DNA of 64,000 nucleotides from a virus. Shown here piece by piece: positions 25,296 through 40,139 of this stretch. Under the pieces are notes generated by a model that was not told the origin of the DNA, ran no database searches, and worked only from the letters and a program-made list of their open reading frames with translations. A program made the position numbers and the translations under genes. Each line of letters opens with the position of its first letter. Position 1 is the stretch's first letter. The stretch lies in the IMG/VR virus record IMGVR_UViG_3300009129_001283, positions 1 through 64,000 of that record. One strand, given 5' to 3'.

Positions 25296-25393
25296 GCTGT
25301 CTCCTTAATTCTCAAAAATTGGGCCGTGTGTTACGAACGGCCTTAGCTTGCTCTGCACCCCCCTAGTATCTACTAGTACCTACTCTCCGGGTA

Positions 25394-27344: not shown

Positions 27345-27689
27345 TTATCGCACCTCTTCTTTAACTTCAAGTGAATTGTATGAGGGATCTTCCGCACGAG
27401 TAAAGAAATAATAGCCATCCAAGCCTTGGGTGTCATAGTGACCAAAGTAAAGGGCTTCAGAGGGTTGTGGAATACGGCAACCAGCATCGGCAGGGGTATC
27501 TTTGACCATTCGTGCAAGGTCGCCAATGGTATGCTTTGCCTCGCGGTAGGTTTCTTCGAGGTATTGAATGGCTAGTTGTTTGATCTCATCTTGATCAAGG
27601 CATTTTTTGACCATATGGGTTGCTACGGTGTTTGCAACCTTGTCATAGTTGGTCTTGGTATTGGGGATCGTAAGGTATTTTGTTTTCAT
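27345..27689 (-). CDS. Early-type hypothetical protein
   Basis: 114 residues from ATG 27689, which has AAAGGAAA at good spacing; upstream in-frame starts at 27740 and 27770 are possible (27770 has GGGAG about 11 nt away). Helical, with KCLDQDEIKQLAIQYLEET. First gene after the promoter cassette at 27832. Further upstream a tiny MNK-stop frame has its own strong ribosome-binding site, perhaps a leader. Confidence 0.55.
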   Translation of the reverse strand: MKTKYLTIPNTKTNYDKVANTVATHMVKKCLDQDEIKQLAIQYLEETYREAKHTIGDLARMVKDTPADAGCRIPQPSEALYFGHYDTQGLDGYYFFTRAEDPSYNSLEVKEEVR

Positions 27690-27831
27690 TGCGTATTTCC
27701 TTTGCGGTTTTGCTGCTTGTAAGTGTTTATTTTTATTCATTATTTCCGAGGCCCACGACGACTTGCCCATTTGGTTTTCTCTCCCGCGCCTTACTTGTTC
27801 ATTTCCCTGTCCCTCCGTTGAATATGGCTTA

Positions 27832-27859
27832 ATTATACACTTCTGAGCAGGGATTGCAA
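27832..27859 (-). promoter_or_regulatory. Early promoter, cassette copy 1
   Basis: Minus strand TTGCAA (27854-27859), 16-bp spacer, TATAAT (27832-27837), inside a block TTTTTCCTTGn5-6CYGYTCAG conserved with the copy at 39233. Drives the leftward early operon 27770 to about 25830. Confidence 0.75.
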
Positions 27860-27991
27860 GGAAAAAGAATCGTTTATTTCCGGATACTTACGCAAAAAGC
27901 GACAATTGAGTGTTTTCGGGGGGTTAGGCGGCATTACGGGTACTTACGTGGATCTCCTAATCGAAGAGATCCCATCGTCATGTCGCATATG
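27860..27991 (-). repeat. Duplicated regulatory cassette, copy 1
   Basis: Noncoding. Contains GTAAGTACC/GTAAGTATC motifs and, in sense, a stem GGATCTC/GAGATCC (27950-27956 with 27966-27972) next to a conserved CATCGTCATGTCGCA block. A second copy with the same order of parts is at 39261-39400. About 50 bp directly upstream of the promoter are highly similar between copies. Confidence 0.8.
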
Positions 27992-27995
27992 GCAT

Positions 27996-28039
27996 AAAAA
28001 CAGGCACCCGCAACCGTAATTTAGTGGCCTTGGGTGCCT
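27996..28039 (-). terminator. Rho-independent terminator at cassette 1
   Basis: Sense AGGCACCC pairs with GGGTGCCT across a 22-nt loop, followed by GTTTTTATG. Ends the transcript of the gene group 28313-39187 before the next promoter. Confidence 0.7.
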
Positions 28040-28141
28040 ATCAAGATAAGGGGGTTTGATCCTAGCCCCTATCATAGCTTGAAAGGCTCGCCGAGCGTAG
28101 GAGGGGAACAGCGACATGCCTAACATAACCATTATATCATG

Positions 28142-28312
28142 ACGACGAGGACATGTTAAGGGGTGACGAGGTTATTTGTCACTTTTTTAACGCAGTGCGT
28201 ATATACTATGTAACGTGCGTGTGCTAGATACATGGCATAGTTCACCACCATTTACCACTTTATTCCACAGAATACCACTAAAGTAGCTACCCTTACCACA
28301 GAGCATACAAAG
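28142..28312. other. Noncoding interval with GTGGTA repeats
   Basis: About 170 bp with no convincing gene; a 39-codon frame lacks a ribosome-binding site. In sense orientation GTGGTA-like hexamers recur four times within 60 bp (TGTGGTAAGG, AGTGGTATTC, AGTGGTAAAT, TGGTGGTGAA). Could be protein-binding repeats or an origin-like element; unproven. Confidence 0.4.
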
Positions 28313-28498
28313 CTATGACCCATCTTCTCTAGCTTCCATAAGCTCCCTAGCAAGCATTGCTTTGAAGTGTTTGAGCATTGTCTCTGTACCAACAATGGGC
28401 ATACCCTTAATAAACTCAGTCTTTATTTTGTCTTCAAAGTCCTTAACCTTATCTTGAAGATATTCTATCTTCTCTTGTCTTTCTTCTTTAGTTGTCAT
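28313..28498 (-). CDS. Small coiled-coil protein
   Basis: 61 residues, charged helix (ERQEKIEYLQDKVKDFEDKIKTEF) and helical tail. ATG overlaps the preceding gene's end. Last gene of the early operon before terminator 1. Unknown function. Confidence 0.55.
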   Translation of the reverse strand: MTTKEERQEKIEYLQDKVKDFEDKIKTEFIKGMPIVGTETMLKHFKAMLARELMEAREDGS

Positions 28499-28745
28499 CT
28501 TCTTCTACTTTCTTAATTTTAAACTCTTGTAAGCCATAGTGTTCGGGGTTATTCAGTATGTCCCTACACTTGTCTCTCCATAATAGTTTTTGTATGTATA
28601 CCTGTACCCATTGTCTATTCTCGTATGAACCTTTTTGGTCTGGCTCTAAGCCTAGCTTTCTTCTTTGGTCCTCTGGTACTGAGTGATACCTTGTGCTGTA
28701 TTCGGCTTCTACTTCTTTTATTACTTCTTCCCACTTTTTCTTCAT
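28488..28745 (-). CDS. Small helical protein
   Basis: 85 residues, charged: MKKKWEEVIKEVEAEYSTRY, then WVQVYIQKLLWRDKCRDIL. No domain recognised; overlaps next gene by 11 bp. Confidence 0.55.
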   Translation of the reverse strand: MKKKWEEVIKEVEAEYSTRYHSVPEDQRRKLGLEPDQKGSYENRQWVQVYIQKLLWRDKCRDILNNPEHYGLQEFKIKKVEEDDN

Positions 28746-28757
28746 TTCGTGTGTCCC

Positions 28758-29021
28758 TTAGCCCAATATGATGTTGTCTACATTTGTCATGTACTTTATG
28801 TGCACTGTTTCTACTTTGTTCTTTACATACACCTTGTAGCAATGCTGGTATGTTCCTCTGTTATCATTTCCTTCTTCTCCCGCCCAGTGCAGCACAATGC
28901 CCACTGAACCATGAAGTCGTATTCTATTGAACATTCCCAACTCTTCGTACATGCTGTCTCTTGGCTTTGTATCTCTAATGGATACCAAGTCTCCTCTTTT
29001 GAATTCTTTTCCTTGTTCCAT
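28758..29021 (-). CDS. Small SH3-like-barrel protein
   Basis: 87 residues: FKRGDLVSIRDTKP, then GSVGIVLHWAGEEG and YKVYVKNKVETVHIKYM, a clear three-strand SH3-like pattern with a long first loop. Family member; function unknown. Confidence 0.7.
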   Translation of the reverse strand: MEQGKEFKRGDLVSIRDTKPRDSMYEELGMFNRIRLHGSVGIVLHWAGEEGNDNRGTYQHCYKVYVKNKVETVHIKYMTNVDNIILG

Positions 29022-29030
29022 GTTTCCTTA

Positions 29031-29693
29031 TTATAGGTCAATAAGCTTGAAGTGCAGGTTCATTTTTCTGATGAAGTTGCTATGTTTTCTTTGCCACCCG
29101 CCAAACTTTACGCCAACGTGGTCAGGGTCGCAATGCAGATAGGCATTCTCTGTGCATATGGCAACGTGAACGAGCTCGTGGACAAAGCTGGTGTTGTGTA
29201 TCTTAACATTCTTTGCTCCTCTAGTGGAAACCCATATCCTCGCGCCGTTGCCCAAGGTCAAACCATGCAGTGGAGTCTCCGCGATGTACTTGCCACTCTC
29301 GGAGTAGACATTCCTTGCCACTAGTTTCCGAGAACTAAACTCTATCTCAAGCGAACGCAAGTCTTCTAATAGCTTTCTTTGAGTCTCCTCGGAGTGGCAG
29401 AAGCCCTCATCAACCCAAAAGGCATAAAAGAGCGACATGGCTGTGGCCAAGTCAAACTTATCAACGGGAAAGAAGCACGAGTCTTGCTCTAGTGTTGCGT
29501 TGCCAAAGCCAACGATAGATGTTTTTGTGGTAGAGAAGCACTTCTTCTCATCTTCGAAAGTGTGGATAGCTTGTGTCTTAACGTAGTCTGTCCACTGGCT
29601 ATGATAGAAGCCATACTGGTCTGTCTCTGGCGTATAACTAGACACAAAAAGCAGGATGATAGATGCTACATACGACCTCAAGATGTTCCTCAC
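29031..29693 (-). CDS. Exported zinc metallopeptidase-like protein
   Basis: 220 residues from a GTG start overlapping the upstream stop (GTGA). N-terminal hydrophobic segment (YVASIILLFVSSY) is a signal peptide or anchor. SFVHELVHVAICTENAYLHCDPDH has H172-E173-x2-H176 and further His/Asp as potential ligands. Cysteines (52, 73, 99, 180, 188) are consistent with disulfides outside the cytoplasm. Would act in the periplasm; an exported peptidase among early genes is notable. Substrate unknown. Confidence 0.65.
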   Translation of the reverse strand: MRNILRSYVASIILLFVSSYTPETDQYGFYHSQWTDYVKTQAIHTFEDEKKCFSTTKTSIVGFGNATLEQDSCFFPVDKFDLATAMSLFYAFWVDEGFCHSEETQRKLLEDLRSLEIEFSSRKLVARNVYSESGKYIAETPLHGLTLGNGARIWVSTRGAKNVKIHNTSFVHELVHVAICTENAYLHCDPDHVGVKFGGWQRKHSNFIRKMNLHFKLIDL

Positions 29694-29908
29694 CTTTCCA
29701 TAATAATGAATGCCAACATAACCAAGTAAATGATTGTGAAAACAGCATCCGTGGCTCTCTTAAACAAATAATATGTATAAAGTTTCAAGCCCGACAAAGT
29801 TAGCATTGCAAACACAAACAACTTTGTGTGGCCGGTAAATAGCGTTAGCAGCATGGCAATGATAGCCATTAGCTGCAAGCGGTTTAATAGTGTCTCATTC
29901 ATCTTCAT
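29690..29908 (-). CDS. Small membrane protein
   Basis: 72 residues, two to three hydrophobic segments (LMAIIAMLLTLFTG, LFVFAMLTLSGLKLYTYYLF, VFTIIYLVMLAFII). Directly upstream of the exported peptidase with a GTGA overlap. Holin-like in size, but no evidence ties it to lysis. Confidence 0.6.
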   Translation of the reverse strand: MKMNETLLNRLQLMAIIAMLLTLFTGHTKLFVFAMLTLSGLKLYTYYLFKRATDAVFTIIYLVMLAFIIMER

Positions 29909-30137
29909 TGTTTTGCTCCTTTTTCTTTGCTAGTCTGTGTGCTGCTTGGCAGATCTGCAGTGCCTCATCTAGCTTTTTGGATATTCTCTCTGGGTCGTCA
30001 AGCAAACCAAGAGGGGCATTGTGCAATGCCCAACTAAGTTGGTGTATCTTGCTGTATGCTTCACACCTAGCTTTGATCGTCTTTGTATGCGTGGCTTTCA
30101 CTGTGGTCTTATTCTTTCTACTTAACTGCCCGAACAA
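29895..30137 (-). CDS. Small helical protein
   Basis: 80 residues, basic N-terminus and helical C-terminus (ISKKLDEALQICQAAHRLAKKK). Start overlaps the preceding gene by 20 bp. Not recognised. Confidence 0.5.
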   Translation of the reverse strand: MFGQLSRKNKTTVKATHTKTIKARCEAYSKIHQLSWALHNAPLGLLDDPERISKKLDEALQICQAAHRLAKKKEQNNEDE

Positions 30138-30390
30138 CGTAGTCTGCTATCCACTTCGAGCATGTTGGGCCTTCCTTGATAGCTATCTTCAAAAGACTTC
30201 GATAGTAGTTCTCAAGGCTTTCGTGGTGCCAAATGGACTTCCCCGTTCTGCTCTTCTCTCTTGAGCGGGAGCGATGAAACTCTACCTTTTCCTGCAAAAA
30301 GGAGATATGCTCATCGAATCCCTTTCGTAACAAGGCCATCTTATCATCGTATGACAAGGTTTCTTTCATATTATCATCACTATCTGCCAT
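30118..30390 (-). CDS. Small helical protein
   Basis: 90 residues; acidic N-terminus, then KVEFHRSRSREKSR and NYYRSLLKIAIKEGPTCSKW. No domain recognised. Confidence 0.5.
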   Translation of the reverse strand: MADSDDNMKETLSYDDKMALLRKGFDEHISFLQEKVEFHRSRSREKSRTGKSIWHHESLENYYRSLLKIAIKEGPTCSKWIADYVVRAVK

Positions 30391-30432
30391 TAACTTTGCC
30401 TTTGTTTGGAAAAAATTTGGGGCGAAAAGCTT

Positions 30433-30537
30433 TTAGTCTGAGGACAAAAGCTCCCTTGCCTCCAACACGACCTTCTCTGCCGCGAGAAGCCCAAGAAGCC
30501 CCACTGCCACCACAACATCCATGACTGCCGCTAACAT
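30433..30537 (-). CDS. Tiny membrane peptide
   Basis: 34 residues: MLAAVMDVVVAVGLLGLLAAEKV, one transmembrane helix, then a short acidic tail. The ATG overlaps the upstream stop (ATGTTAG), implying coupled translation. Its Ala/Leu/Gly-rich helix resembles that of the peptide at 30840. Confidence 0.5.
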   Translation of the reverse strand: MLAAVMDVVVAVGLLGLLAAEKVVLEARELLSSD

Positions 30538-30824
30538 ACCATTTCCCGCATCTTGCTCTGTCGCTTGGCAGCGGCCTCAATAACGTTAAGACCTGCTGCC
30601 GTGGCAAGATCTTCGCCCATTGGGTCGCGCAACTGAGCTTCGAGTCGAGCTTCGATGTAGTCCGACAGAGTGAAGCCAAGGTTCGTAAACAAATAGCTTT
30701 CTTGCTTAAGACCTGAGTAAAACTTATCATGGTATGTGAAATACTCCATGATGTTGCTTTGTATTTTTTCGGGCCCAGTTGGGGCCTCTTCTTGTTTTTT
30801 CTTTTTATTCTTATTGAAGGTCAT
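30531..30824 (-). CDS. Early-type hypothetical protein
   Basis: 97 residues with a lysine-rich start and helical body (LGFTLSDYIEARLEAQLRDPM). Strong GGAGAGGAG ribosome-binding site. Not recognised. Confidence 0.55.
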   Translation of the reverse strand: MTFNKNKKKKQEEAPTGPEKIQSNIMEYFTYHDKFYSGLKQESYLFTNLGFTLSDYIEARLEAQLRDPMGEDLATAAGLNVIEAAAKRQSKMREMVC

Positions 30825-30839
30825 TTTCAGTCTCCTCTC

Positions 30840-30986
30840 CTAATAAAGAACAATCATCCCGCTAAGTTGCATGGCTGAAATAATGCCAAGTGCTGCAACT
30901 GCTCCCCTCAAATACCATCGGCTCAAGTCTGCTACAGCAGCCAACAAGCCTAGACCAAGTTTTTTAGTATCAATGTTTACTTTCAT
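30840..30986 (-). CDS. Tiny membrane peptide
   Basis: 48 residues: MKVNIDTKKLGLGLLAAVAD, polar WYLRG, then VAALGIISAMQLSGMIVLY; one or two membrane helices. ATGA overlap with the upstream gene supports it. Unknown function. Confidence 0.55.
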   Translation of the reverse strand: MKVNIDTKKLGLGLLAAVADLSRWYLRGAVAALGIISAMQLSGMIVLY

Positions 30987-31210
30987 AGTTTCGTACCGTT
31001 CCTTTCGTACACCGCTTCTTTGTCGTATTTTCTTTCAACGACTTTCGATGACATGTAATTAACTATGCCCTGCAGTGCATTTATTGCCGTTTGCATCTTC
31101 TTTTTGTGGTTGTCGTCTGCCGTTGAAAATTCTTCCGAGCCTACCTCTTTGTTCATCTCTTTCAACACTTCTTTTACTTTCTTCTGATACTGGTTCATGT
31201 CTCTAAACAT
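30983..31210 (-). CDS. Small helical protein
   Basis: 75 residues from ATG 31210 (AAGGACAAG upstream; overlaps the upstream TAG). Charged helices: MNQYQKKVKEVLKEMNKE and KKKMQTAINALQGIVNYM. Not recognised. Confidence 0.55.
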   Translation of the reverse strand: MFRDMNQYQKKVKEVLKEMNKEVGSEEFSTADDNHKKKMQTAINALQGIVNYMSSKVVERKYDKEAVYERNGTKL

Positions 31211-31808
31211 TCTTCTTGTCCTTCTTGCTATTTTTAAATTGTTCTGCTGTTTTCTTAACAGACCACTTAGAGTTTCGTGAAAGTTTGGCATAAGTCTCCA
31301 ACTCCTCTTTGAAGGTAAAGGGTCGCCTCTTAACTTTCGTCATAAATTCAGACTCTTTCCCCATTTTCAAGTCACCAACGGACTGCTTCTCCCCATAAGG
31401 AGGAAAGGTATTAGTTTCGTTTGTGCCAAAAAGGTAAGCCCCAACTGCCCCTTTCGGAATAAAGAGAAAAGAATCCTGCCCATACTCCTCTGAGAGAACA
31501 AATAACATTGTCTCAAACGCTGTGTCATCTAAGAGGTTTACGACGAAAAAGCTTTCCTCGGCAACCTCCATTGCGGCTGGTTGTTCAAAGTTCTCTATGT
31601 AAGATCCCTTCACCTTGGTGACACCATATCCCCTTTCCAAAAGTCGAGCCTTCAAGATCCGGTTGTTTTCGTAGTTTTCTTTTTTCTTCCTGTCACCCCG
31701 AAAGCTTGTCACAATAGCGGTGTCGTGCTCTAGCATGTGCGAATACACTCTCGAAAGAGAGGACTCCCCCAAAAATTGTCTCCAGTTTTCATGTATTTTG
31801 TTCGCCAT
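31203..31808 (-). CDS. Protein with N-terminal HENWRQFL tag
   Basis: 201 residues. Starts MANKIHENWRQFLGESSLSR, fourth example of the ENW-type tag, here in the early block. Core HDTAIVTSFRGDRKKKENYENN and LKARLLERGYGVTKVKG with VVNLLDDTAFETMLFVLSEEYGQDSF looks like the DUF3293-type alpha/beta domain known from marine phages (from memory). The tail is basic (KNSKKDKKNV). Confidence 0.6.
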   Translation of the reverse strand: MANKIHENWRQFLGESSLSRVYSHMLEHDTAIVTSFRGDRKKKENYENNRILKARLLERGYGVTKVKGSYIENFEQPAAMEVAEESFFVVNLLDDTAFETMLFVLSEEYGQDSFLFIPKGAVGAYLFGTNETNTFPPYGEKQSVGDLKMGKESEFMTKVKRRPFTFKEELETYAKLSRNSKWSVKKTAEQFKNSKKDKKNV

Positions 31809-31862
31809 GTTTTGTTCTCTCCTTGCCTCTCCATTCTATCACACAAGGGTGATGTTTTTAAC

Positions 31863-32024
31863 TTAAAAGTCCAATAGTTTCTTCACTCTTTTGGTGATGG
31901 GTCGGTTTTCTCTGCTTTTGTACGCCACCTCTTGACCACCGAAGATCTCCTGAAATAGTTTGTTCGCTATTTCCATATCAAACTCGGCTGGCAGCACTAT
32001 TCGTCCTTTATCTTTTCCCGACAT
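31863..32024 (-). CDS. Small hypothetical protein
   Basis: 53 residues: GRIVLPAEFDMEIANKLFQEIFGG and a basic tail. The AGAGAAG stretch upstream is a weak ribosome-binding site; it overlaps the 45-residue ORF upstream. Not recognised. Confidence 0.45.
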   Translation of the reverse strand: MSGKDKGRIVLPAEFDMEIANKLFQEIFGGQEVAYKSRENRPITKRVKKLLDF

Positions 32025-32134
32025 ATATTTTTGTTCTTCTCTTTCTTCTTGTCTTTGAAGACTTGGTTCTTGTGGTCGTTAAGTTTTGGGACCAAAGGGT
32101 TTCTCGGTAGTCTTTGTTCTTTTTTCTTTGCCAT
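31997..32134 (-). CDS. Tiny basic protein
   Basis: 45 residues, very lysine-rich (MAKKKEQRLPRNPLVPKLND, then KDKKKEKNKN). Starts 4 bp after the Fe-S carrier gene's stop with GGGGTATGAGAT upstream. Coding potential uncertain. Confidence 0.4.
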   Translation of the reverse strand: MAKKKEQRLPRNPLVPKLNDHKNQVFKDKKKEKNKNICREKIKDE

Positions 32135-32137
32135 ATC

Positions 32138-32473
32138 TCATACCCCAAAGGAGCTTCCGCAGCCACACTTCTTCTTCGCGTTTGGGTTTACAAACTTAAA
32201 ACCTGCAGCCATCAAGTTTTCCCCGTAGTCAAGTGTGGTGCCTTGTAACACCACCGCGCTGTACCCATCAACAGCAACCTTCAAGCCACCTACCTCTGTC
32301 ACATGATCGTGCTCATAGCTCTCTGTGTCTATCTCTAGCTTGTATTGAAGACCTGAGCATCCTCCGCCCTGTATCGCAGCGCGTAGAAATGCACCTTGCT
32401 TGCCCTCACCATCGAGAGCCTCTTTCGCCTTCTCTATTGCTGCTTCTGTTAGTGTCAATGGAAACTCACTCAC
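32138..32473 (-). CDS. A-type iron-sulfur cluster carrier (IscA/ErpA/HesB family)
   Basis: 111 residues from a GTG start (GTGAGTGA overlap). Conserved cysteines C39 (GGGCSGLQY) and C103-G-C105 (KKCGCGSSF) are the full cluster-binding set of the family. Expected to bind and transfer Fe-S clusters to client proteins in the cytoplasm. In this window a possible client is the radical-SAM KamA, but the two genes are 29 kb apart. HesB-like genes are known from marine phages. Confidence 0.9.
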   Translation of the reverse strand: MSEFPLTLTEAAIEKAKEALDGEGKQGAFLRAAIQGGGCSGLQYKLEIDTESYEHDHVTEVGGLKVAVDGYSAVVLQGTTLDYGENLMAAGFKFVNPNAKKKCGCGSSFGV

Positions 32474-32684
32474 GTTCTTTCTGCCTCAGTGCCCTTAAAA
32501 ATATCTCTGCATGTGTTCGGTACTTAAAGTCTGCAATACTTGAATTGTATATGTCGCCTGCTGAGTCTGTCAATACCCGATACACTGTGTAGCCACCTGG
32601 ACCAAATGTGGTATTGTACCCAAAAGTTATCGGCTTTCCGCCGAAGTCATATCTTGGCGGGTATTTAGCTTTTGCTTTGCTCAT
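32466..32684 (-). CDS. Early-type hypothetical protein
   Basis: 72 residues: YPPRYDFGGKPITFGYN, GPGGYTVYRVLTDSAGD, then an acidic-basic helix (AEIFLRALRQKERE). Good GAGGAAGC ribosome-binding site. Overlaps the Fe-S carrier start. Not recognised. Confidence 0.55.
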   Translation of the reverse strand: MSKAKAKYPPRYDFGGKPITFGYNTTFGPGGYTVYRVLTDSAGDIYNSSIADFKYRTHAEIFLRALRQKERE

Positions 32685-32690
32685 GCTTCC

Positions 32691-32780
32691 TCACGGTGTG
32701 TGTGTTAGTATATAAATAATAAGATTGCAGCCAACTATCAGTGTCATCATGTATAGAAAAATTCCAGCGTATCCGTCCAT
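32691..32780 (-). CDS. Tiny membrane peptide
   Basis: 29 residues: MDGYAGIFLYMMTLIVGCNL plus IIYILTHTP, essentially one transmembrane helix. Fits exactly between the neighbouring genes and follows a CTATTTATA box at 32784-32792. Ribosome-binding site weak. Confidence 0.4.
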   Translation of the reverse strand: MDGYAGIFLYMMTLIVGCNLIIYILTHTP

Positions 32781-32794
32781 ACATATAAATAGCC

Positions 32795-33127
32795 CTAAGA
32801 GGAAATAACAAAGCAGTTATACTCGATATAGTCCCTATCAAACCAGTGTGCGCCACTTGGTGTTCGAGCTAGATAAGTGTCCTTTGTCTTTCTCCTGTCT
32901 TTCACCCCAAGAACAATTGCGATGCCATCTTCGGGATAGTCAGCATCAGTGATCAGGTCGCCCACCTTGGGAAGACTCCTGTTCTCTTCTTTTTGCTTCA
33001 ATAGCTTTTCCAGTTCCAGTCTATTTTTTGTCCAAGGTTCGGAATACTCATCGTAAAGCCTCATGCTGCGACGGGCTTGCGTGATAGCAAACGTCAACTG
33101 ATGCCACTCTTCTTGCCCTAATGCCAT
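32795..33127 (-). CDS. SH3-like protein with helical N-terminus
   Basis: 110 residues. Residues 1-50 are a charged helix (LTFAITQARRSMRLYDEY); residues 52-105 carry the SH3-like pattern PKVGDLITDADYPEDGIAIVLGV and TYLARTPSGAHWFDRDYIEY. Family member. Confidence 0.65.
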   Translation of the reverse strand: MALGQEEWHQLTFAITQARRSMRLYDEYSEPWTKNRLELEKLLKQKEENRSLPKVGDLITDADYPEDGIAIVLGVKDRRKTKDTYLARTPSGAHWFDRDYIEYNCFVISS

Positions 33128-33441
33128 TATAGCACCTCCCCGTAGATCTCTCCTTCATACTCAAGGGTTTCGTCCGTTGCTGCCAAGTCTTCGGGCCTGC
33201 TGATGGTTGCGTCTGCAGACAGGACTCCAGCCCCGAACCGCTTTGCTGCTCCCACCTTTGCGGCGCGAACAATATCACTGATAGGAGAGTTTCTGTCTGC
33301 CTCCACAACAACATTGCAGTGCTTAGGAAACCACTCATCGCCCATGTCGCCCTGTATTCCAGGTGCCCAAACGATATTCTCTAAAAAAACATGAAACGCC
33401 TTCTTCAAGGGCATATCAAATGCGTCAACTTTATTTGTCAC
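33127..33441 (-). CDS. Early-type hypothetical protein
   Basis: 104 residues from a GTG start with GAGGAGTACAACC upstream. Sequence KCNVVVEADRN-like strand (HCNVVVEADRNSPISDIV) and helix AAKVGAAKRFGAG suggest an alpha/beta fold. First full-size gene after the perfect promoter at 33621. Not recognised. Confidence 0.6.
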   Translation of the reverse strand: MTNKVDAFDMPLKKAFHVFLENIVWAPGIQGDMGDEWFPKHCNVVVEADRNSPISDIVRAAKVGAAKRFGAGVLSADATISRPEDLAATDETLEYEGEIYGEVL

Positions 33442-33505
33442 GGTTGTACTCCTCTGTCTGACATAAGCAAATATAAAATAACATTCCTACAATTAACCAT
33501 TCCAT
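33431..33505 (-). CDS. Tiny membrane peptide in leader position
   Basis: 24 residues, MEWLIVGMLFYICLCQTEEY then NRDK. Strong AGAGAGGAGACAAA before the ATG, and its end overlaps the GTG start of the next gene. It is the first coding unit after the structured leader RNA, so it may be a coupled leader peptide. Confidence 0.5.
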   Translation of the reverse strand: MEWLIVGMLFYICLCQTEEYNRDK

Positions 33506-33537
33506 TTTGTCTCCTCTCTAAAAAAGTTGAGCAGTTA

Positions 33538-33603
33538 CCCCTGCCGACTTGCTGCCCGTCAAGTGCATGAGGATTCCGTACATGCGCCCGATTGAGGCAG
33601 GGG
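33538..33603 (-). ncRNA. Structured leader RNA, candidate three-way junction
   Basis: An 8-bp closing stem CCCCTGCC/GGCAGGGG (33538-33545 with 33596-33603) encloses two 5-bp hairpins, ACTTG/CAAGT (33547-33551, 33560-33564) and GCATG/CATGC (33565-33569, 33581-33585). It begins about 10 nt after the predicted start of the transcript from the promoter at 33621 and ends about 30 nt before the first ORF. It could be a riboswitch-like or protein-binding leader. It does not match a tRNA (no T-loop). Confidence 0.55.
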
Positions 33604-33620
33604 AAGATGTGATCCCTATA

Positions 33621-33649
33621 ATTATACCATAAGGAATAAGTCATGTCAA
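33621..33649 (-). promoter_or_regulatory. Perfect sigma70-like promoter
   Basis: Minus strand TTGACA (33644-33649), 17 bp, TATAAT (33621-33626). The -35 overlaps the stop codon of the SH3-like gene at 33646. Predicted transcript start about 33614. Confidence 0.85.
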
Positions 33650-33954
33650 GTGTTTTCTTCTGGTATCAACTCAACCTCCGTTATATATGAAGTTAAATAC
33701 TCCGATATTACTGGCCCATGATCTCCTGCATGCCAGCAGATCCGAACGCCTTCTGGTATGTCCTTTGTCTCCCAAGAGCCCATATCTATTCCAGTTTGAA
33801 TGACAACACCGATCCACTTATCCGTGTGAGGCCCATACCAATACTCCATGTCACTCATGTTCGCTGGACCTGGTGCGCTCTGCCTCTCGGACAAGCTCAT
33901 CTCGTAAAAGCGGCGCTTAAACTGCACCAAGTCTCCCACTTTAGGTTTATACGG
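33646..33954 (-). CDS. SH3-like protein
   Basis: 102 residues from ATG 33954 (overlaps the methyltransferase stop; an upstream ATG at 34008 is possible). MPYKPKVGDLVQFKRRFYEM, then WIGVVIQTGIDMGSW, VRICWHAGD and a C-terminal strand: all core strands of the family with a longer insert. Confidence 0.65.
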   Translation of the reverse strand, partial: PYKPKVGDLVQFKRRFYEMSLSERQSAPGPANMSDMEYWYGPHTDKWIGVVIQTGIDMGSWETKDIPEGVRICWHAGDHGPVISEYLTSYITEVELIPEENT

Positions 33955-34693
33955 CATTCTTTTCTGCCTCTGCGATATTTTCGCATGCAAGTTTGAAATA
34001 CTCTTCATCTTTCTCTATCCCAATAAAACGACGGTTATGCTTTGTGGCTACGACTGCAGTGGTGCCAGCGCCCAAGAAGGGATCGATAATTGTGTCACCC
34101 TCTTCTGTGGTGGGCAGGATGCAGTTCTCAACCAACTTCTCTGGAAAGGTGCAGACGTGTCCTTCATTCCTTGACGGAGGGAACCTCCATACATTTGTTA
34201 AGCCCAAGCTGTTGTTCCATTTGCGAGGCTTCTGAATTTGGTAAACTCTCTCCTCTTGGATGTGGTATCTCCTTGACGGGTTTCCAATGCCGCATCGATC
34301 CCATATGATCTCACACCAAATGGGAAACTTCGATAACCATTGCATAGGGTGGTGAAGGTTGCTCTCAGAGCGATAGATGTTTCTATTGTGCCAAGCAAAC
34401 CTCACCTTGTGGTTGTAGAAGATGCTGCTTGCACAGACTCTCATCAGGGAGTGAATGACTGATTGCTGCCAGCCTTGGTATTCCCATTCTGGCATATCAT
34501 CATCGTACCACTTGTCGTACTTCTCCGTCATAGACTTGCTAGTCTTTGAGTTTTCGTAGTTAGAATATCTCTTGTTGAGGTTGTAAGGTGGTGATGTAAC
34601 GCACACCTCAACTGAGTTCCTGTCCAGCGATGCCATCACCTCTTGGCAATCTCCAAGGTAAACAACTCCGTTTTTAAATTCTCGTTTAAACAT
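33947..34693 (-). CDS. DNA methyltransferase, N6/N4-type, beta class
   Basis: 248 residues. Catalytic motif IV is CVTSPPYNLN (SPPY 34-37), motif I is the C-terminal DPFLGAGTTAVVA, so the order IV then I defines the beta class (N6_N4_Mtase). The SPPY form favours N4-cytosine methylation over N6-adenine. No adjacent restriction enzyme. Probably protects phage DNA from host restriction. Confidence 0.9.
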   Translation of the reverse strand: MFKREFKNGVVYLGDCQEVMASLDRNSVEVCVTSPPYNLNKRYSNYENSKTSKSMTEKYDKWYDDDMPEWEYQGWQQSVIHSLMRVCASSIFYNHKVRFAWHNRNIYRSESNLHHPMQWLSKFPIWCEIIWDRCGIGNPSRRYHIQEERVYQIQKPRKWNNSLGLTNVWRFPPSRNEGHVCTFPEKLVENCILPTTEEGDTIIDPFLGAGTTAVVATKHNRRFIGIEKDEEYFKLACENIAEAEKNAV

Positions 34694-34901
34694 ATTTCTC
34701 CAAACTCTCTACACAATGAAAGGTCTTACACCGAGGCTTGCGGTCCAATGGTAGCCACAAGACCTCAACATACATGGTAGTATCCTTGTCGTATTTGACC
34801 ACAAGGCCCACTTCATCTCTGTAGTGTGGTACGGGACTGTGTTGCCAGTCGGCATGCTTAACCAAGTCTCCAATGGTAACATTGTTTTTATTCGTCAGCA
34901 T
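34686..34901 (-). CDS. Small SH3-like-barrel protein
   Basis: 71 residues: TIGDLVKHADWQHSPVPHY, EVGLVVKYDKDTTMYVEVLW, then a C-terminal CVESLEKYV helix. Head of a run of four consecutive SH3-like genes with overlapping ends. Confidence 0.7.
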   Translation of the reverse strand: MLTNKNNVTIGDLVKHADWQHSPVPHYRDEVGLVVKYDKDTTMYVEVLWLPLDRKPRCKTFHCVESLEKYV

Positions 34902-35121
34902 CGATCTTTTTCAACCTTCTGGCTGGATGCCACATTGCCGCGCCATTGTCACACCACCGCACACAAACGTGTTGCTTGCCCGTTGCGGGGAACTCAAGTG
35001 TGCTTAGGACCAGCCCCAAGGCATACTTCGATCCCTCTGGCAATGCCCTGATAGAAACTTCTCTTACCAAGTCTCCTCTTTCTATTGTGAAATTACTTTT
35101 AGCCATGTTTTGTGATGCCAT
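34888..35121 (-). CDS. Small SH3-like-barrel protein
   Basis: 77 residues from ATG 35121; 35157 and 35106 are alternatives. IERGDLVREVSIRALPEG, YALGLVLSTLEFPATGKQ, VCVRWCDNGAAMWHPARRL matches the family including the VRW strand and the W-x-P-x-x-L tail shared with the 24899 gene. Confidence 0.65.
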   Translation of the reverse strand: MASQNMAKSNFTIERGDLVREVSIRALPEGSKYALGLVLSTLEFPATGKQHVCVRWCDNGAAMWHPARRLKKIDADE

Positions 35122-35291
35122 TGTGTCACCGACCTTCCTATGATGTGTGTGTCCCATCTAACCAAAACCCCGCAGCCCCAAAGAGCATGCTCTTCACCAA
35201 CCTTTACAACAACTCCCACATGATCCTTGCTAGAGTGTGGGTGTGACACCGGAAAAGTCTCTTTAACTATGCTTCCCGCCCTGCAGTCCAT
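35082..35291 (-). CDS. Small SH3-like-barrel protein
   Basis: 69 residues from ATG 35291 in a TAATG overlap. RAGSIVKETFPVSHPHSSKD, HVGVVVKVGEEHALW, GVLVRWDTH: canonical GIVV and VRW strands. Overlaps the next gene by about 40 bp. Confidence 0.7.
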   Translation of the reverse strand: MDCRAGSIVKETFPVSHPHSSKDHVGVVVKVGEEHALWGCGVLVRWDTHIIGRSVTQWHHKTWLKVISQ

Positions 35292-35662
35292 TATGACCCC
35301 CATCGGTTTTCATCGCTAATGAGCTTCCACCAGTCTGACCTCTTGGTCACACCTTTTATATGCTTTACCCGCACGAAAAAGCGGCGATACATGCCTTCCC
35401 TGCCCTCTGTTGGGACAAAGATACAATGGTTTTCGGGAACCAGCACCAAGGAGCCCCTTGTGTACTCTGCGAAGCTGTTGTCGTTAGTGACCTCCGCTAA
35501 GATATGGGGATCAATCTCCCTCTCACCTGCCCTGCGGATGGCTTTAGGCTTGGTGCCATGCACGTCAACGAGTTTAATACACTCGATAGACGAACTATCA
35601 GGGCGCATATCGCCCATGATCTCTTCTACTATGCTCTTCGCGAGGAAGTCTGCTGCTCTCAT
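35291..35662 (-). CDS. SH3-like protein with N-terminal extension
   Basis: 123 residues. First 65 residues are helical/mixed (MRAADFLAKSIVEEIMGDM); residues 66-118 carry YTRGSLVLVPENHCIFVPTE and RRFFVRVKHI...WWKLI, the SH3-like module. Confidence 0.6.
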   Translation of the reverse strand: MRAADFLAKSIVEEIMGDMRPDSSSIECIKLVDVHGTKPKAIRRAGEREIDPHILAEVTNDNSFAEYTRGSLVLVPENHCIFVPTEGREGMYRRFFVRVKHIKGVTKRSDWWKLISDENRWGS

Positions 35663-35670
35663 GGTATCTC

Positions 35671-35853
35671 CTACTCGATGTAACCTTGTTCAACAAGTGC
35701 TGCTGCGTGTCTTTGGTAGCTTCCCTGCAAATGGTTAAGCAGGTTGCGGTCTAGTAACTCCTGAAAGAAGTCGATAACCTCTCCCTCGTCCATTTCGCCA
35801 TTCTCATACGCCATGATCATGCTAACAATATTGTTCGTTTCTTCAAACTTCAT
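35671..35853 (-). CDS. Small conserved phage protein (DUF7417-like)
   Basis: 60 residues: NIVSMIMAYENGEMDEGEVI and LLNHLQGSYQRHAAALVEQG. The AYENGE...LQGSYQR..AAL.E pattern is one I recall from many unrelated phages. Function unknown. Confidence 0.7.
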   Translation of the reverse strand: MKFEETNNIVSMIMAYENGEMDEGEVIDFFQELLDRNLLNHLQGSYQRHAAALVEQGYIE

Positions 35854-36146
35854 TATAGTTTACCTTCCTTTATAAGTTTCCCAACCGTGGGCATTGGCTT
35901 ATCGTGCTTCAACATAGGACTAGACAACTTGGCAAGGTCTTGGAAGTCATCAAAGCTAAAGTCCTCACCCTTCAATGGGCTGTTGACACGAAGAATGAAC
36001 TTAATAATGTCATACTTGAGATCAACGTATTCTGCTCTCAGTTTGAACCTTTCTGCCATGCTAAGTCTATCATACATGCTAAGTAAAACTTCCTCAAAGT
36101 GGTTAAGGGTGTTGTTCAATTCTACTTCTATTCTTTCTTTTTTCAT
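35853..36146 (-). CDS. Early-type helical protein
   Basis: 97 residues, mostly helix (NNTLNHFEEVLLSMYDRL, RAEYVDLKYDIIKFIL) with a C-terminal TVGKLIKEGKL. Adjacent stop/start with the DUF7417-like gene. Not recognised. Confidence 0.55.
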   Translation of the reverse strand: MKKERIEVELNNTLNHFEEVLLSMYDRLSMAERFKLRAEYVDLKYDIIKFILRVNSPLKGEDFSFDDFQDLAKLSSPMLKHDKPMPTVGKLIKEGKL

Positions 36147-36155
36147 ACTTATTCC

Positions 36156-36368
36156 TTATTGAATTTTCGTTAGTGTTTTGATGTCAAACCATTTTTTCAT
36201 CTGGTCGCCATAAGCTCCGCTGTCATTAAGCCAGAAAACTTGTGCGACATTCTCTTCAAATATCATTTCTTTTATTTCCCGCACGATGCCCATCAAAGGT
36301 GGGTATCCGTACTTCTCTTGCTTTGCTGATAAACCCTCATGGGTCACTGTATCGCCTACTTTAAGCAT
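36156..36368 (-). CDS. Small SH3-like-barrel protein
   Basis: 70 residues from ATG 36368 with GGAGCGAG upstream. LKVGDTVTHEGLSAKQEKYG, MGIVREIKEMIFEENVAQVF WLN..., ending FDIKTLTKIQ. Family member. Confidence 0.65.
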   Translation of the reverse strand: MLKVGDTVTHEGLSAKQEKYGYPPLMGIVREIKEMIFEENVAQVFWLNDSGAYGDQMKKWFDIKTLTKIQ

Positions 36369-36372
36369 CGTT

Positions 36373-36573
36373 TTACTCGCTCCAATCATATCGCTCTTGT
36401 GCTTCGTCCGGTCGCTCGATCTCTACCACCGCGACAAGCAAACTTGAGTCGTTTACATACTCAACACCATCAACAAAGGCATTGGCACACTCTCTCGTAA
36501 CAAAGGATGCGATAACCCTGCCTTCGTTCTCTGATGCGTCACCATCTCTTTTTATCACTACTTGATATGTCAT
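36373..36573 (-). CDS. Early-type hypothetical protein
   Basis: 66 residues from ATG 36573 with AAAGGAGAATAAG; the long frame from 36720 is not supported. TYQVVIKRDGDASENEGRVI, FVDGVEYVNDSSLLVAVVEI suggests a small beta-alpha-beta protein. Not recognised. Confidence 0.55.
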   Translation of the reverse strand: MTYQVVIKRDGDASENEGRVIASFVTRECANAFVDGVEYVNDSSLLVAVVEIERPDEAQERYDWSE

Positions 36574-36574
36574 C

Positions 36575-36802
36575 TTATTCTCCTTTTCCCGCCAAGAAGT
36601 CGCTATAGCGGATGTGGCTTCGGTGGTGATAGCCATTGGCGAAGCCATAGTCCAGTGCTTCTCTGACGGTATCAAACATTTTCTTTTCAATGACTCCACT
36701 GTTGGTGCGGTACAAGCCAACTTCTTTGTATGTGCCGTCCAAGTCAGTGGTTGTCCATGTTGAAAAAGTGCCTGTCTTTGGGTTCTCTGTCTTTGGGTTC
36801 AT
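36575..36802 (-). CDS. Early-type protein, paralogue of the 38996 gene
   Basis: 75 residues. KKMFDTVREALDYGFANGYH and SDFLAGKGE line up with FKTNLSAVRYGHENGYK and YAQFKGQ of the gene at 38996, indicating duplication within the operon. Function unknown. Confidence 0.6.
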   Translation of the reverse strand: MNPKTENPKTGTFSTWTTTDLDGTYKEVGLYRTNSGVIEKKMFDTVREALDYGFANGYHHRSHIRYSDFLAGKGE

Positions 36803-36811
36803 CTTTGTCTC

Positions 36812-37003
36812 CTATGACTCAATAGTGGTTTCATAATAAGCATCATCATCATCTGTGATGCGAATGGTACATTGGGAATGCTCTGATGCCACCTCTTTGG
36901 CGAATGACAGCGCATCCTCTTCTGAGGCGATATCCTCTTTCAAGACTTCCCACGATGGTGCATTCTCTCCCCACGGGCAATACTTAATATCTACTTTAAA
37001 CAT
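36812..37003 (-). CDS. Early-type hypothetical protein
   Basis: 63 residues: MFKVDIKYCPWGENAPSWEV, EEDALSFAKEVASEHSQCTI, acidic. TAATG overlap upstream. The DALxFAKE helix between strands resembles other small proteins of this block. Not recognised. Confidence 0.55.
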   Translation of the reverse strand: MFKVDIKYCPWGENAPSWEVLKEDIASEEDALSFAKEVASEHSQCTIRITDDDDAYYETTIES

Positions 37004-37206
37004 TATAACACCCTTTCTTTGGTTCTCTGAGCAAGCCTTAGTGCTTCTGCTGCTGACTCCGTGTCAGGAAATTTGTCTTGCAACAAAAGCTGAAGGTTTT
37101 CAACAATGAATAGCTGTGAGGCATTTGTTGGTTCTGTGTAGTATCCGTTGCCAAACTCATATTTGGAAAGGATGTTGATGGTTTTGGTATACTCGTAAAT
37201 GTCCAT
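37003..37206 (-). CDS. Early-type hypothetical protein
   Basis: 67 residues: GNGYYTEPTNASQLFIVENL then helix ESAAEALRLAQRTKERVL. Not recognised; coding supported by operon overlap. Confidence 0.5.
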   Translation of the reverse strand: MDIYEYTKTINILSKYEFGNGYYTEPTNASQLFIVENLQLLLQDKFPDTESAAEALRLAQRTKERVL

Positions 37207-37207
37207 A

Positions 37208-37354
37208 TTATAATTTCCGAAGGGGTGGTGGGTTGTCTTGTTTTACTCTCTTTTTGATAACCTTTTTGTAAGCCGCTTCGCAAATTTGATGAAACTGCTC
37301 TTCGGTTACATTAAGATACTCTAATACTGCTTCTAATTCTTGCTTGTCAGTCAT
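37208..37354 (-). CDS. Tiny early-type protein
   Basis: 48 residues from ATG 37354 with AAAAGGAGAATAAA; helical (KQELEAVLEYLNVTEEQFHQ) with a basic Pro-containing tail. Not recognised. Confidence 0.5.
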   Translation of the reverse strand: MTDKQELEAVLEYLNVTEEQFHQICEAAYKKVIKKRVKQDNPPPLRKL

Positions 37355-37370
37355 TTTATTCTCCTTTTCC

Positions 37371-37748
37371 CTAGTCAAACTCGTTAGGATCTGAAACGTG
37401 AACAGTGACACTTACTTCTTTGTGTGCTTCCCACGGGTTATCGTGCCATTCGCCAATGTTGTTTTCATCATATTCAGGGTATTCCCCGCATGCCTCAATA
37501 ATAATGTAGTCCTCTTCATAAAAGCCGTTCTCTGGTGATGAAGTAAGGTACTTTAAAGCATCATAAAGCTCAACAATTTCTGGATAGTCGTCCCTGTACC
37601 ATTTCACGGACTCAAAGATGAACGCTCGTCCTTCTGGCTTTTTGCTGCTCTGATCAGACATTTCTTCTAAAAACTTCTGTGTCTCAGGCTTCAAGTTGAG
37701 AAAGATATGCTCTTTTGTTGCTACAAATACGTCACTTCTAATACCCAT
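37371..37748 (-). CDS. Early-type acidic protein
   Basis: 125 residues. GIRSDVFVATKEHIFLNLKP and FIFESVKWYRDDYPEIVELY, EEDYIIIEACGEYPEYDEN. Similar acidic alpha/beta proteins with a RSDV start occur in phages (recalled). No function known. Confidence 0.6.
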   Translation of the reverse strand: MGIRSDVFVATKEHIFLNLKPETQKFLEEMSDQSSKKPEGRAFIFESVKWYRDDYPEIVELYDALKYLTSSPENGFYEEDYIIIEACGEYPEYDENNIGEWHDNPWEAHKEVSVTVHVSDPNEFD

Positions 37749-37969
37749 TATTCTTCTCCTTCAAAAATGTCATCTTGGCAGGTCTGGCAAAGGCCAGAAA
37801 TTTCAAACTCTCTAGCACTCTCTTGGGTGTGGAATTTGACTACAGGCTTGCCACAGCCGATAGGTGCGGGTACGCAAACCTCATCAAGAATGGCTTGCTC
37901 GCGGTCAACACCGAATTCGGCCTTGAGGTGGTTGTCAATATGGGGGCTTTTAATAGTTGGAATAAGCAT
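37748..37969 (-). CDS. Small putative zinc-ribbon protein
   Basis: 73 residues with cysteines C32, C39 and C61-x2-C64 (VCVPAPIGCGK, GLCQTCQDD), a plausible four-cysteine zinc site. ATG overlaps the upstream gene (TAATG with next). Unknown role. Confidence 0.5.
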   Translation of the reverse strand: MLIPTIKSPHIDNHLKAEFGVDREQAILDEVCVPAPIGCGKPVVKFHTQESAREFEISGLCQTCQDDIFEGEE

Positions 37970-37980
37970 AGTGTCTCCTT

Positions 37981-38208
37981 TTAGTCTCGATAGCAGCCGT
38001 TAGTCCTCAATAAGTTTTGATAGCCAACCTTGGCTAGTGATAAGATCTCTTCCCTACCATCATCAGGTAGTTCGCCAAGCTCACTAAGAAAGCTCAACAG
38101 TTCAGCGTTTGGATCATACTTGTTGGTCGCCTTGATAACAAGGTGCATCAAGTGTGATGCTGTTTTGCGCTGTGTCTCTTCAAATAAAATTTCATGTGCT
38201 GCTTTCAT
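37981..38208 (-). CDS. Early-type helical protein
   Basis: 75 residues, helical: AAHEILFEETQRKTASHLMH, ELLSFLSELGELPDDGREEI. Not recognised. Confidence 0.5.
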   Translation of the reverse strand: MKAAHEILFEETQRKTASHLMHLVIKATNKYDPNAELLSFLSELGELPDDGREEILSLAKVGYQNLLRTNGCYRD

Positions 38209-38209
38209 A

Positions 38210-38461
38210 TTATTCTCCTTCTATTTCTTCAATTTCATCTACTGGCAACCAACCAAACCATCGTGGGAAGCGCGGGTCTTTGCTATCTCGCTCAACACTG
38301 CAGAATGACTGACAGGTGCGGCCCACAAAACCATGAACATTGTCGGCAAACTCTCTAAAGTGCTTCGACATTGGACCCTGCTCTTCCTTGAGGGGGATCA
38401 CGGTGTGTTCTCTAAAGCGGTTTTTAGTGCGTTTTGTTGCGTTAGCATTAGGCTTAAACAT
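38210..38461 (-). CDS. Early-type hypothetical protein
   Basis: 83 residues from ATG 38461 (GGAGCTAATA upstream). Basic N-terminus (MFKPNANATKRTKNRFREH) and a C-terminal RFPRWFGWLPVDEIEEIEG. The last part resembles short SH3-fold ends but is not assigned to the family. Confidence 0.5.
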   Translation of the reverse strand: MFKPNANATKRTKNRFREHTVIPLKEEQGPMSKHFREFADNVHGFVGRTCQSFCSVERDSKDPRFPRWFGWLPVDEIEEIEGE

Positions 38462-38463
38462 TA

Positions 38464-38655
38464 TTAGCTCCATTCTTTCAAGTCAATTTCACAAACATTG
38501 TTCCCAATTGTACCATCGTTCCATAGCACCTTGAAGAAATTCCTATCACCAAAGAATTTCCTGTTAAGTGAATTGTGTTCTAGCTTTTCCAAGACGATAC
38601 CAATTTTTCTAATGTTTGTACCAGTGTGTTTTACTAAAGTTCCCGCTGCTTTCAT
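38464..38655 (-). CDS. Small SH3-like-barrel protein
   Basis: 63 residues: AAGTLVKHTGTNIRKIGIVL, FFKVLWNDGTIGNNVCEIDL: GTLV, GIVL and VLW strands and a final IDLKEW. Family member. Confidence 0.65.
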   Translation of the reverse strand: MKAAGTLVKHTGTNIRKIGIVLEKLEHNSLNRKFFGDRNFFKVLWNDGTIGNNVCEIDLKEWS

Positions 38656-38985
38656 TTATTGTTGCTCCTGTTCTACAGCCATTCGTGCTGCTTGCTTTGC
38701 GATACAGACCAAGCCCGCTTGTGTTGGGAAGTCTTCTACCATTTTCCATTCAATTTCATTGGGCATGTGTCGGCTGTAAAAGGCCAACGAGTCCCAGCGG
38801 TCAAGTGAGATATGATTGAAATGACCATCATTTTTCGAACTCGTAAGCGTCTTAATACCAAAGGCATCCTTAACTTGCTGTACCAGTGCGGGACGCACCA
38901 GTTGAGAATAGTATTGCTGGTGCGTACATGCACCGTTTAAATAGTCTTTGCGGGTATAAACAAAAGGTACTGTTGGGCTTGCCAT
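38656..38985 (-). CDS. Conserved phage protein, CTHxQYY type
   Basis: 109 residues: YTRKDYLNGACTHQQYYSQ is a pattern I recall from many phages infecting different hosts, followed by KDAFGIKTL and a helical tail. Function unknown. Confidence 0.65.
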   Translation of the reverse strand: MASPTVPFVYTRKDYLNGACTHQQYYSQLVRPALVQQVKDAFGIKTLTSSKNDGHFNHISLDRWDSLAFYSRHMPNEIEWKMVEDFPTQAGLVCIAKQAARMAVEQEQQ

Positions 38986-38995
38986 GATAAAACTC

Positions 38996-39187
38996 CTATT
39001 GGCCTTTAAATTGTGCGTAAGATGCAGACTTTTCTGCTAATTTATAACCATTTTCATGCCCGTAACGGACAGCAGACAAATTAGTCTTGAAGATCTGCTC
39101 TTCGATGTTCCCACGCTCATCACGGAATACACCCAAAATAACACACTGGTCGAAAATTGTTGTAACGTATGTTTTATATTCTTTCAC
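38996..39187 (-). CDS. Early-type protein, first gene of operon
   Basis: 63 residues; paralogue of the 36575 gene (shared ...YGxxNGYK/H and final aromatic F-x-G). It is the first gene after promoter cassette 2. AAAAAGGAGTAAGCAA upstream: the start codon is GTG or the preceding TTG-like codon is not used. Function unknown. Confidence 0.6.
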   Translation of the reverse strand: MKEYKTYVTTIFDQCVILGVFRDERGNIEEQIFKTNLSAVRYGHENGYKLAEKSASYAQFKGQ

Positions 39188-39232
39188 TTGCTTACTCCTT
39201 TTTAGTTTCGTTCTTGTCTTTAAGATGTACCC

Positions 39233-39260
39233 ATTATACCAAACTGAACGGGGAACACAA
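39233..39260 (-). promoter_or_regulatory. Early promoter, cassette copy 2
   Basis: Minus strand TTGTGT (39255-39260), 16 bp, TATAAT (39233-39238), in the same TTTTTCCTTG...GTTCAG block as copy 1. Drives the long early operon 39187 to 28313 (with internal promoters at 33621). Confidence 0.75.
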
Positions 39261-39400
39261 GGAAAAAGATCTGTTTACTTTCGGGTACTTAGGGATAAAA
39301 CGACATTCAGGTACTTATGCGTTTTTGCCCGACTTATGGCCATTTTCAGGCACTTACGTGGATCTGTTTTTTGGGGTAGATCCATCGGCATGTCGCACAT
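39261..39400 (-). repeat. Duplicated regulatory cassette, copy 2
   Basis: Noncoding. Sense CTAAGTACCCGAAAGTAAACAG upstream of the promoter (core CTAAGTACC), CATAAGTACC and ACGTAAGTGCC repeats, then stem GGATCT/AGATCC (39360-39365 with 39378-39383) and ATCGGCATGTCGCA. Same order as copy 1; stem length and loop differ but pairing is kept. Confidence 0.8.
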
Positions 39401-39401
39401 A

Positions 39402-39431
39402 CAAAAAAACCCCCTAAAAACAGGGGGTTAC
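39402..39431 (-). terminator. Rho-independent terminator at cassette 2
   Basis: Sense AACCCCCTGTTTTTAGGGGGTT hairpin (7 bp) followed by a run of T. Ends the transcript of 39446 and upstream genes before cassette 2. Confidence 0.85.
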
Positions 39432-39445
39432 GTAAGTGCTTGTAT

Positions 39446-39829
39446 TTAAAGGACATTTAGAGATCTCTTCTTTTTCTTGAATTCTCTAATTTTGATGGAG
39501 TCGCTTTCACGGGCATGGGGCAGGATGGAATCCACCATTGGCTCATAAAGGCTTGTAATCATCGCCCGAATGTACTCAAGGCTTACAGGCTTAGTGACAT
39601 ACTCTCCGCCGCAAGGGAACAGCACCGCTTGTGCCTCTCGGATATGGCGTGAGATATTGCGGGTACGAGCAGGGTGACGCTTCTTGAGATACACCGCCTC
39701 TTTTCTGAGATAGTCTGCTATAATTACAGGCACCCCAAATGAAAACAGGATAGCCTTGGATGGCTTGCGGATGCCAGCCACATCATAAACAATGAGGGTC
39801 TGGTTTCTCTCTCTATTTATTACTTTCAT
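39446..39829 (-). CDS. Early-type hypothetical protein
   Basis: 127 residues from ATG 39829 (AAAAGGAGAGAAG). Strand TLIVYDVAGIRKPSKAILF, basic middle (KKRHPARTRNISRHIREAQ), basic tail (KIREFKKKKRSLNVL). Possibly nucleic-acid binding by charge. Not recognised. Confidence 0.55.
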   Translation of the reverse strand: MKVINRERNQTLIVYDVAGIRKPSKAILFSFGVPVIIADYLRKEAVYLKKRHPARTRNISRHIREAQAVLFPCGGEYVTKPVSLEYIRAMITSLYEPMVDSILPHARESDSIKIREFKKKKRSLNVL

Positions 39830-40139
39830 TCTTCTCTCCTTTTGGGGGAAGTGTTTGATCAAGCGTCGTTGGTTTCTTCCCCACAGGGCAAACCTCGTAT
39901 GTTCCCCCACTATACGCAGTCATAACAAACCTCATCCCTTTGACATTTACAAGAACTTTTCGCTCCCATATATTAACATCTTCCACTTTCGCTATCCGGC
40001 AATGAAAGGCATGAACAAATGCGTCAATGTACTTCTCTACTTGGGGTAGTGTTGGAACTTGTGCAACTATCGGAAGAGATATGGCTGCAAAAGAAAAAAC
40101 ACACCCAAGGAAGAAGCCCACTAAGGAACTGCGACTCAC
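39813..40139 (-). CDS. Exported small protein
   Basis: 108 residues from GTG (GTGTGA overlap). N-terminal signal-like segment (LVGFFLGCVFSFAAISLPIVAQ) and a soluble beta-containing rest (KVLVNVKGMRFVMTAYSGG). Probably periplasmic or membrane-anchored. Not recognised. Confidence 0.6.
   Translation of the reverse strand: MSRSSLVGFFLGCVFSFAAISLPIVAQVPTLPQVEKYIDAFVHAFHCRIAKVEDVNIWERKVLVNVKGMRFVMTAYSGGTYEVCPVGKKPTTLDQTLPPKGEKNESNK

Follow-up and report, generated by a model that had tools for sequence, protein, structure and literature searches.

What do two similar intergenic regions do in the genome of an uncultured phage: form a structured RNA, bind a regulator of the operons that follow them, or start replication? 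The stretch of DNA analysed here (the window) covers 64,000 bases of an IMG/VR virus record that is 64,356 bases long. It encodes a DnaE-type DNA polymerase, GroEL, a MoxR-type ATPase with its partner and an Fe-S carrier protein, a gene content that points to a large tailed phage, and its large genes all lie on the minus strand. No close cultured phage was found: the DNA polymerase is ~31% identical to its best matches, and the cassette DNA gave no match to cultured phages in a phage collection. Two repetitive elements were also seen elsewhere in the window, namely three tandem 27-bp repeats (TAAGTsCTTGTTTTT...) at 4263-4343 and a gene at 45269-47209 (minus strand) for a 646-aa protein, which has a lipoprotein-like start, a VWA-like C-terminal part and repeated DxDxDG-type motifs that derive from a six-copy 45-bp DNA repeat.

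The two cassettes and their relatives

Alignment of the shared blocks confirmed the first-pass annotation's description of two intergenic regions that contain the same parts in the same order. When copy 2 was used as a BLAST query against its own genome, copy 1 was returned at E = 8e-8 with 68% identity, far beyond chance, and exact matches to ATCGkCATGTCGCA occurred in the two cassettes only. Since all genes here are on the minus strand, the cassette has to be read on that strand, with TATAAT as its downstream end. The order then becomes terminator, TGCGACATGnCGATG, GGATCT-spacer-AGATCC, direct repeats of the TAAGTnCC type, the TGTCG block, an A-rich or T-rich stretch, CTTGnnn, 16 bp and TATAAT. 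This overturns the promoter-leader order proposed at first, as the stem and the repeats are located upstream of the -35 and there is no leader; the inverted repeat that had been taken for a hairpin lies ~120-145 bp upstream of the -10. The parts of copy 1 and its following gene are:

27832-27859, minus strand: core promoter, with -35 TTGCAA (27859-27854), a 16-bp spacer and -10 TATAAT (27837-27832)
27879-27904, minus strand: proximal module, with the TGTCG block (27904-27900) and a TAAGT repeat from 27890 (-53 from the -10)
27915-27948, minus strand: two distal repeats at a distance of 19 bp, CGTAAGTACCCG (TAAGT starting at 27946) and a weaker one, CTAACCCCCCG (starting at 27927)
27950-27972, no strand assigned: inverted repeat GGATCTC/GAGATCC, the supposed stem, without covariation
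27973-27987, minus strand: TGCGACATGACGATG block
27345-27770, minus strand: first conserved gene to follow copy 1; its 141-aa product matches no family

The corresponding parts of copy 2 are:

39233-39260, minus strand: core promoter, with -35 TTGTGT (39260-39255), a 16-bp spacer and -10 TATAAT (39238-39233)
39280-39305, minus strand: proximal module, with the TGTCG block (39305-39301) and TAAGTACCCGAA (TAAGT from 39291, -53)
39306-39358, minus strand: distal direct repeats, TAAGT from 39317, 39336 and 39356 (-79, -98 and -118)
39360-39383, no strand assigned: inverted repeat GGATCT/AGATCC
39384-39397, minus strand: TGCGACATGCCGAT block
39408-39429, minus strand: intrinsic terminator of the operon upstream of copy 2, whose last gene is 39446-39910
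38656-38985, minus strand: first gene after copy 2 that the five relatives carrying copy 2 all share; phrog_25437 (109 aa), modelled as all-helical

AlphaFold models the phrog_25437 protein with confidence, yet the model has no match in the PDB; distant relatives of this protein occur in four phage records of 58-85 kb. Two details of the initial description were revised. The -35 is weak as described, but the TTTTTCCTTG block is not separate from it: the block overlaps the -35 (TTGnnn, 16-bp spacer), and in the relatives its CTTG alone is kept while TTTTTC is not. Likewise, the terminator assigned to the upstream operon was upheld for copy 2 only, that of copy 1 ending a distinct, predicted small-RNA gene that has a promoter of its own. 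At copy 1 of G011 and G012 (see below), no terminator with a clear T run was found.

Protein and DNA scans recovered five further distinct genomes with the cassette, represented by contigs 3300032011_000001 (G009), 3300032820_000001 (G002), 3300008954_000089 (G001), 3300030329_006012 (G011) and 3300025141_000088 (G012), and contig 3300032073_000004 (G010), whose copy-1 sequence is the same as that of G009 and was not counted as a distinct copy. This gave 11 distinct copies from six related uncultured phage genomes, six of copy 2 and five of copy 1, with the G001 contig stopping short of the place expected for copy 1. Further copies in front of other operons had been named as possible support for the initial proposal, and profile scans found none: the three large relatives (158, 190 and 191 kb) each carry exactly two cassettes, ~9-11 kb apart, with weak partial matches elsewhere. 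A pattern match in contig 3300037565 (L065) was rejected as an extra copy, as it sits in unrelated DNA. The pair flanks the same small-gene block, and the genes at its sides are homologous between genomes, with local reshuffling. A DNA methyltransferase gene at 33947-34693 (minus strand) is >90% identical in G011 and G012, with most of the neighbouring genes far more divergent, and was not found in the G009 region searched; its sequence suggests that it is possibly a recent transfer.

In the distal part of the cassette, most copies are nearest to their orthologs (0.80 between the copy 1s and 0.73 between the copy 2s of the window and G009, versus 0.64 between the two window copies), so the cassette does not behave as a mobile element. 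The promoter core of G011 copy 1 resembles that of copy 2 in the same genome (0.81) more than it does those of the other copy 1s; a core nearest to its paralog combined with distal parts nearest to their orthologs is expected for an old duplication with occasional exchange. The same core similarity could also be explained if the cassette were mobile, similar to the promoter-terminator PeSLs of T4-type phages, and persisted mainly as a patch of homology at which genes are shuffled. A duplicated promoter and terminator in an intergenic gap, among genes that are shuffled between relatives, would fit this as well. However, only two copies exist, in fixed syntenic places, the distal parts mostly resemble their orthologs more than their paralogs, and the strict internal spacing calls for another reason; we thus regard a mobile cassette as quite unlikely.

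The inverted repeat and a predicted small-RNA gene

The inverted repeat had been presented as a co-varying stem, its kept pairing being taken as the sign of a functional RNA. If the stem and the repeats formed a leader, a riboswitch-like RNA or an antisense RNA, one could explain why both window copies and every copy-2 ortholog have perfect arms but variable loops. However, in the eight copies that have both arms it is the spacer alone that changes; the arms are invariant, none of the six pairs shows a compensatory change, and the outer pair is broken in one of the eight. Moreover, the left arm is missing in three of the five copy-1 orthologs (G002, G011 and G012), and the folding energy of the stem segment is, on either strand, only slightly below that of shuffled sequences (z -1.0 to -1.75). 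The segment is located upstream of the promoter and just downstream of the terminator, and transcripts from its own promoter would not be expected to cover it. An Rfam search returned two tRNAs only, its other matches being chance, and nothing for the cassettes. Because the arms never covary and the left arm is lost in three copy 1s, the RNA reading fails, and we consider it highly improbable; a lack of covariance support for the stem is also what the first-pass annotation had named as grounds for refuting its proposal. As far as the sequences of these copies tell, the supposed RNA hairpin is a DNA motif, not a folded RNA.

A different RNA is predicted beside copy 1, where the following features were located:

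28131-28159, minus strand: promoter of the predicted small-RNA gene, TTAACA-17-TATAAT, conserved in G009
27996-28124, minus strand: body of the predicted small-RNA gene, ~125 nt
27996-28039, minus strand: its intrinsic terminator, AGGCACCC/GGGTGCCT and a T run

Before the terminator, this gene is 94% identical to its counterpart in G009, compared to 69-84% for four neighbouring genes. The predicted fold of the RNA is more stable than those of shuffled sequences (z -2.5), and its loop UUCCCCUCCUACGCU is largely unpaired in the predicted folds of the window and G009. In these models the exposed C-rich CCCCUCCU loop could pair with Shine-Dalgarno sequences, and the small RNA is a candidate for a regulatory RNA of the phage. 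It has no match in Rfam, was found among viral contigs in G009 and G010 only, and was absent from bacterial genomes in an exact 19-mer scan. RNAalifold detected no covarying pair in the two sequences, and hand reading of the terminator gave one C-G to U-A change, which is a weak sign.

Two other stretches that are nearly unchanged in G009 were observed on the minus strand. The ~100 bp of noncoding DNA upstream of the small RNA (28180-28290) are nearly identical in the window and G009; they contain repeats of the AGTGGTA type and a CTATG...CATAG inverted repeat, and comparable GGTGGTA motifs lie ahead of copy 1 in G011 and G012. The stretch at 25226-25350 is 98% identical to G009, partly noncoding, and contains a G/C-rich stretch that resembles a hairpin, as well as GGCCGTT...ACGGCC followed by a T run, which resembles a terminator; it may possibly encode another structured RNA.

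Spacing of the upstream repeats

To describe the layout of the cassettes, positions were counted from the first T of the -10. A TTGnnn -35 with a 16-bp spacer and CTTG is present in 11/11 copies, the -10 is near-consensus (TATAAT, TATGAT or TATAGT), and co-oriented genes follow the promoters. In copy 2 of G009, G011 and G012, the repeats start at -128, -108, -89 and -63; G001 and G002 keep the first three, with the fourth (-63) degraded. In copy 2 of the window, all four repeats are exactly 10 bp closer (-118, -98, -79 and -53). The copy 1s have repeats at -108 or -109 and at -53, and a weaker repeat of the TAACC type follows the first at a distance of 19 bp, except in G012, where the repeats are at -136, -117 and -98. 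Furthermore, TGTCG is found at -67 or -77, which are exactly 10 bp apart, in 10/11 copies; in the remaining one, G012 copy 1, the block is kept but inverted and at a different position, which would be tolerable for a DNA site. The right GATC half-site precedes the first repeat by 9 bp in all eight copies with both arms, while the left half-site and the TGCG block shift together, the distance between the half-sites being 9 bp (copy 2 of G001, G002 and G011) or 17-19 bp.

The direct repeats are mostly 19-20 bp apart, the fourth being 26 bp away (2.5 turns), and their consensus is loose, with CAACT and TAACC variants. Fixed insides together with links that change by ~10 bp indicate three modules whose links differ by about one helical turn. 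The case for phasing rests on few independent indels, namely one of exactly 10 bp, one of 9 bp within the array and one of 8-10 bp at the half-sites, the last being not exactly one turn. This kept spacing with one-turn changes is the requirement of a protein complex on DNA, not of a hairpin. In the three large relatives, a scan for repeat sites outside the cassettes showed no excess over reversed sequence used as the control (91 vs 96, 61 vs 62 and 85 vs 92); in the window it gave 30 vs 19, part of which is supplied by the cassettes themselves. Repeat matches beyond the cassettes are not clearly enriched.

Direct repeats spaced by 19-20 bp beside an inverted repeat and a promoter would also fit an iteron-type origin, in which an initiator binds the repeats, with the GATC inverted repeat as an accessory site and the promoter serving to prime or activate initiation. 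Copy 1, in addition, lies in a long intergenic region (~540 bp noncoding) that is among the longest gaps in these genomes, although other noncoding gaps are longer. The suggestion that the cassettes are an origin nevertheless gained no specific support: they have no DnaA boxes, are not AT-rich and show no GC-skew switch, and each genome has two of them, each heading an operon. The genes that follow match no replication family, and no initiator gene could be recognised next to the cassettes, the neighbouring proteins matching no family and the fold of one of them having no PDB match. An origin would not be expected to keep an exact 10-bp phase with the -10 either, and we consider this reading unlikely.

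Proposed regulated promoters and known systems

Of the initial suggestions, the one in which a regulator of the early operons binds the repeats is supported best, given the strict spacing of the repeats just upstream of a sigma70-type promoter in six phages. The comparison of these genomes suggests that the two cassettes are paralogous promoters under regulation of either sign, to which we assign a probability of roughly 0.7. The core would be a host-type sigma70 promoter (TTGnnn-16-TATAAT) whose -35 is poor in its second half, the use of sigma70 being an assumption based on the hexamers. The ~130 bp of upstream DNA would form a helically phased array of putative binding sites, made up of the TGCGnCATGnCGAT block with the GGATCT half-site, the AGATCC half-site and three to four direct repeats of the TAAGTnCC type, and ending in a TGTCG/TAAGT module centred near -60 or -70 from the predicted start. 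A DNA-binding regulator encoded by the phage or the host would occupy this array and act through RNA polymerase, by class-I-like activation or possibly by repression, and the two following small-gene operons would thereby be switched together. Protein binding, the sign of the regulation, the identity of the regulator and the timing are what we infer here; as to the sign, our guess is that activation is favoured over repression. Pfam and PHROGs searches with the small neighbouring proteins returned nothing DNA-binding. The same block of genes also contains two promoters that match TTGACA-17-TATAAT perfectly, at 33621-33649 and 25744-25772 (minus strand); they have no upstream array and offer natural comparisons for the cassette promoters.

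A bolder version, which we hold only tentatively and think rather doubtful, is that a phage regulator of a new family builds a phased nucleoprotein complex on exactly two promoters and so switches the host-takeover block and the neighbouring small RNA. There is almost no knowledge of how small-gene operons of the host-takeover type are regulated in uncultured large phages. Here, sequence comparison alone defined a putative regulon of two promoters, gave the exact positions of its sites and suggested a rule for their phasing; the model is therefore directly testable and provides bait for finding the regulator.

Three known systems resemble the cassettes in part. Iteron-type origins with GATC repeats, such as P1 oriR, have direct repeats about two turns apart, an AGATCC motif and an adjacent promoter. 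The cassettes share all three, but they lack DnaA boxes, are not AT-rich and occur as two copies that each head an operon. The PeSL promoter-stem-loop cassettes of T4-type phages (Arbiol 2010; Comeau 2014), as described at second hand in PMC4503421, likewise place an early-type promoter and a terminator in short intergenic gaps of a large phage in more than one copy. An early-type promoter and a stem-loop terminator between genes are present here as well; by that same account, however, PeSLs have many copies in regions of intense gene shuffling, whereas the phages analysed here carry two per genome at fixed places, with a long conserved upstream array and no sign of a dense shuffled set. The third system is that of the class I activator-dependent sigma70 promoters, in which CRP sites follow a one-turn rule (-61.5, -71.5 and so on; PMC10882989). 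Compared to these, the cassettes have three to four direct repeats and half-sites over ~130 bp. As at malT or lac, however, the sites lie upstream of the -35 with positions one turn apart allowed and a proximal site centred near -60 or -70, and this combination of a weak core with phased upstream sites resembles class I activation.
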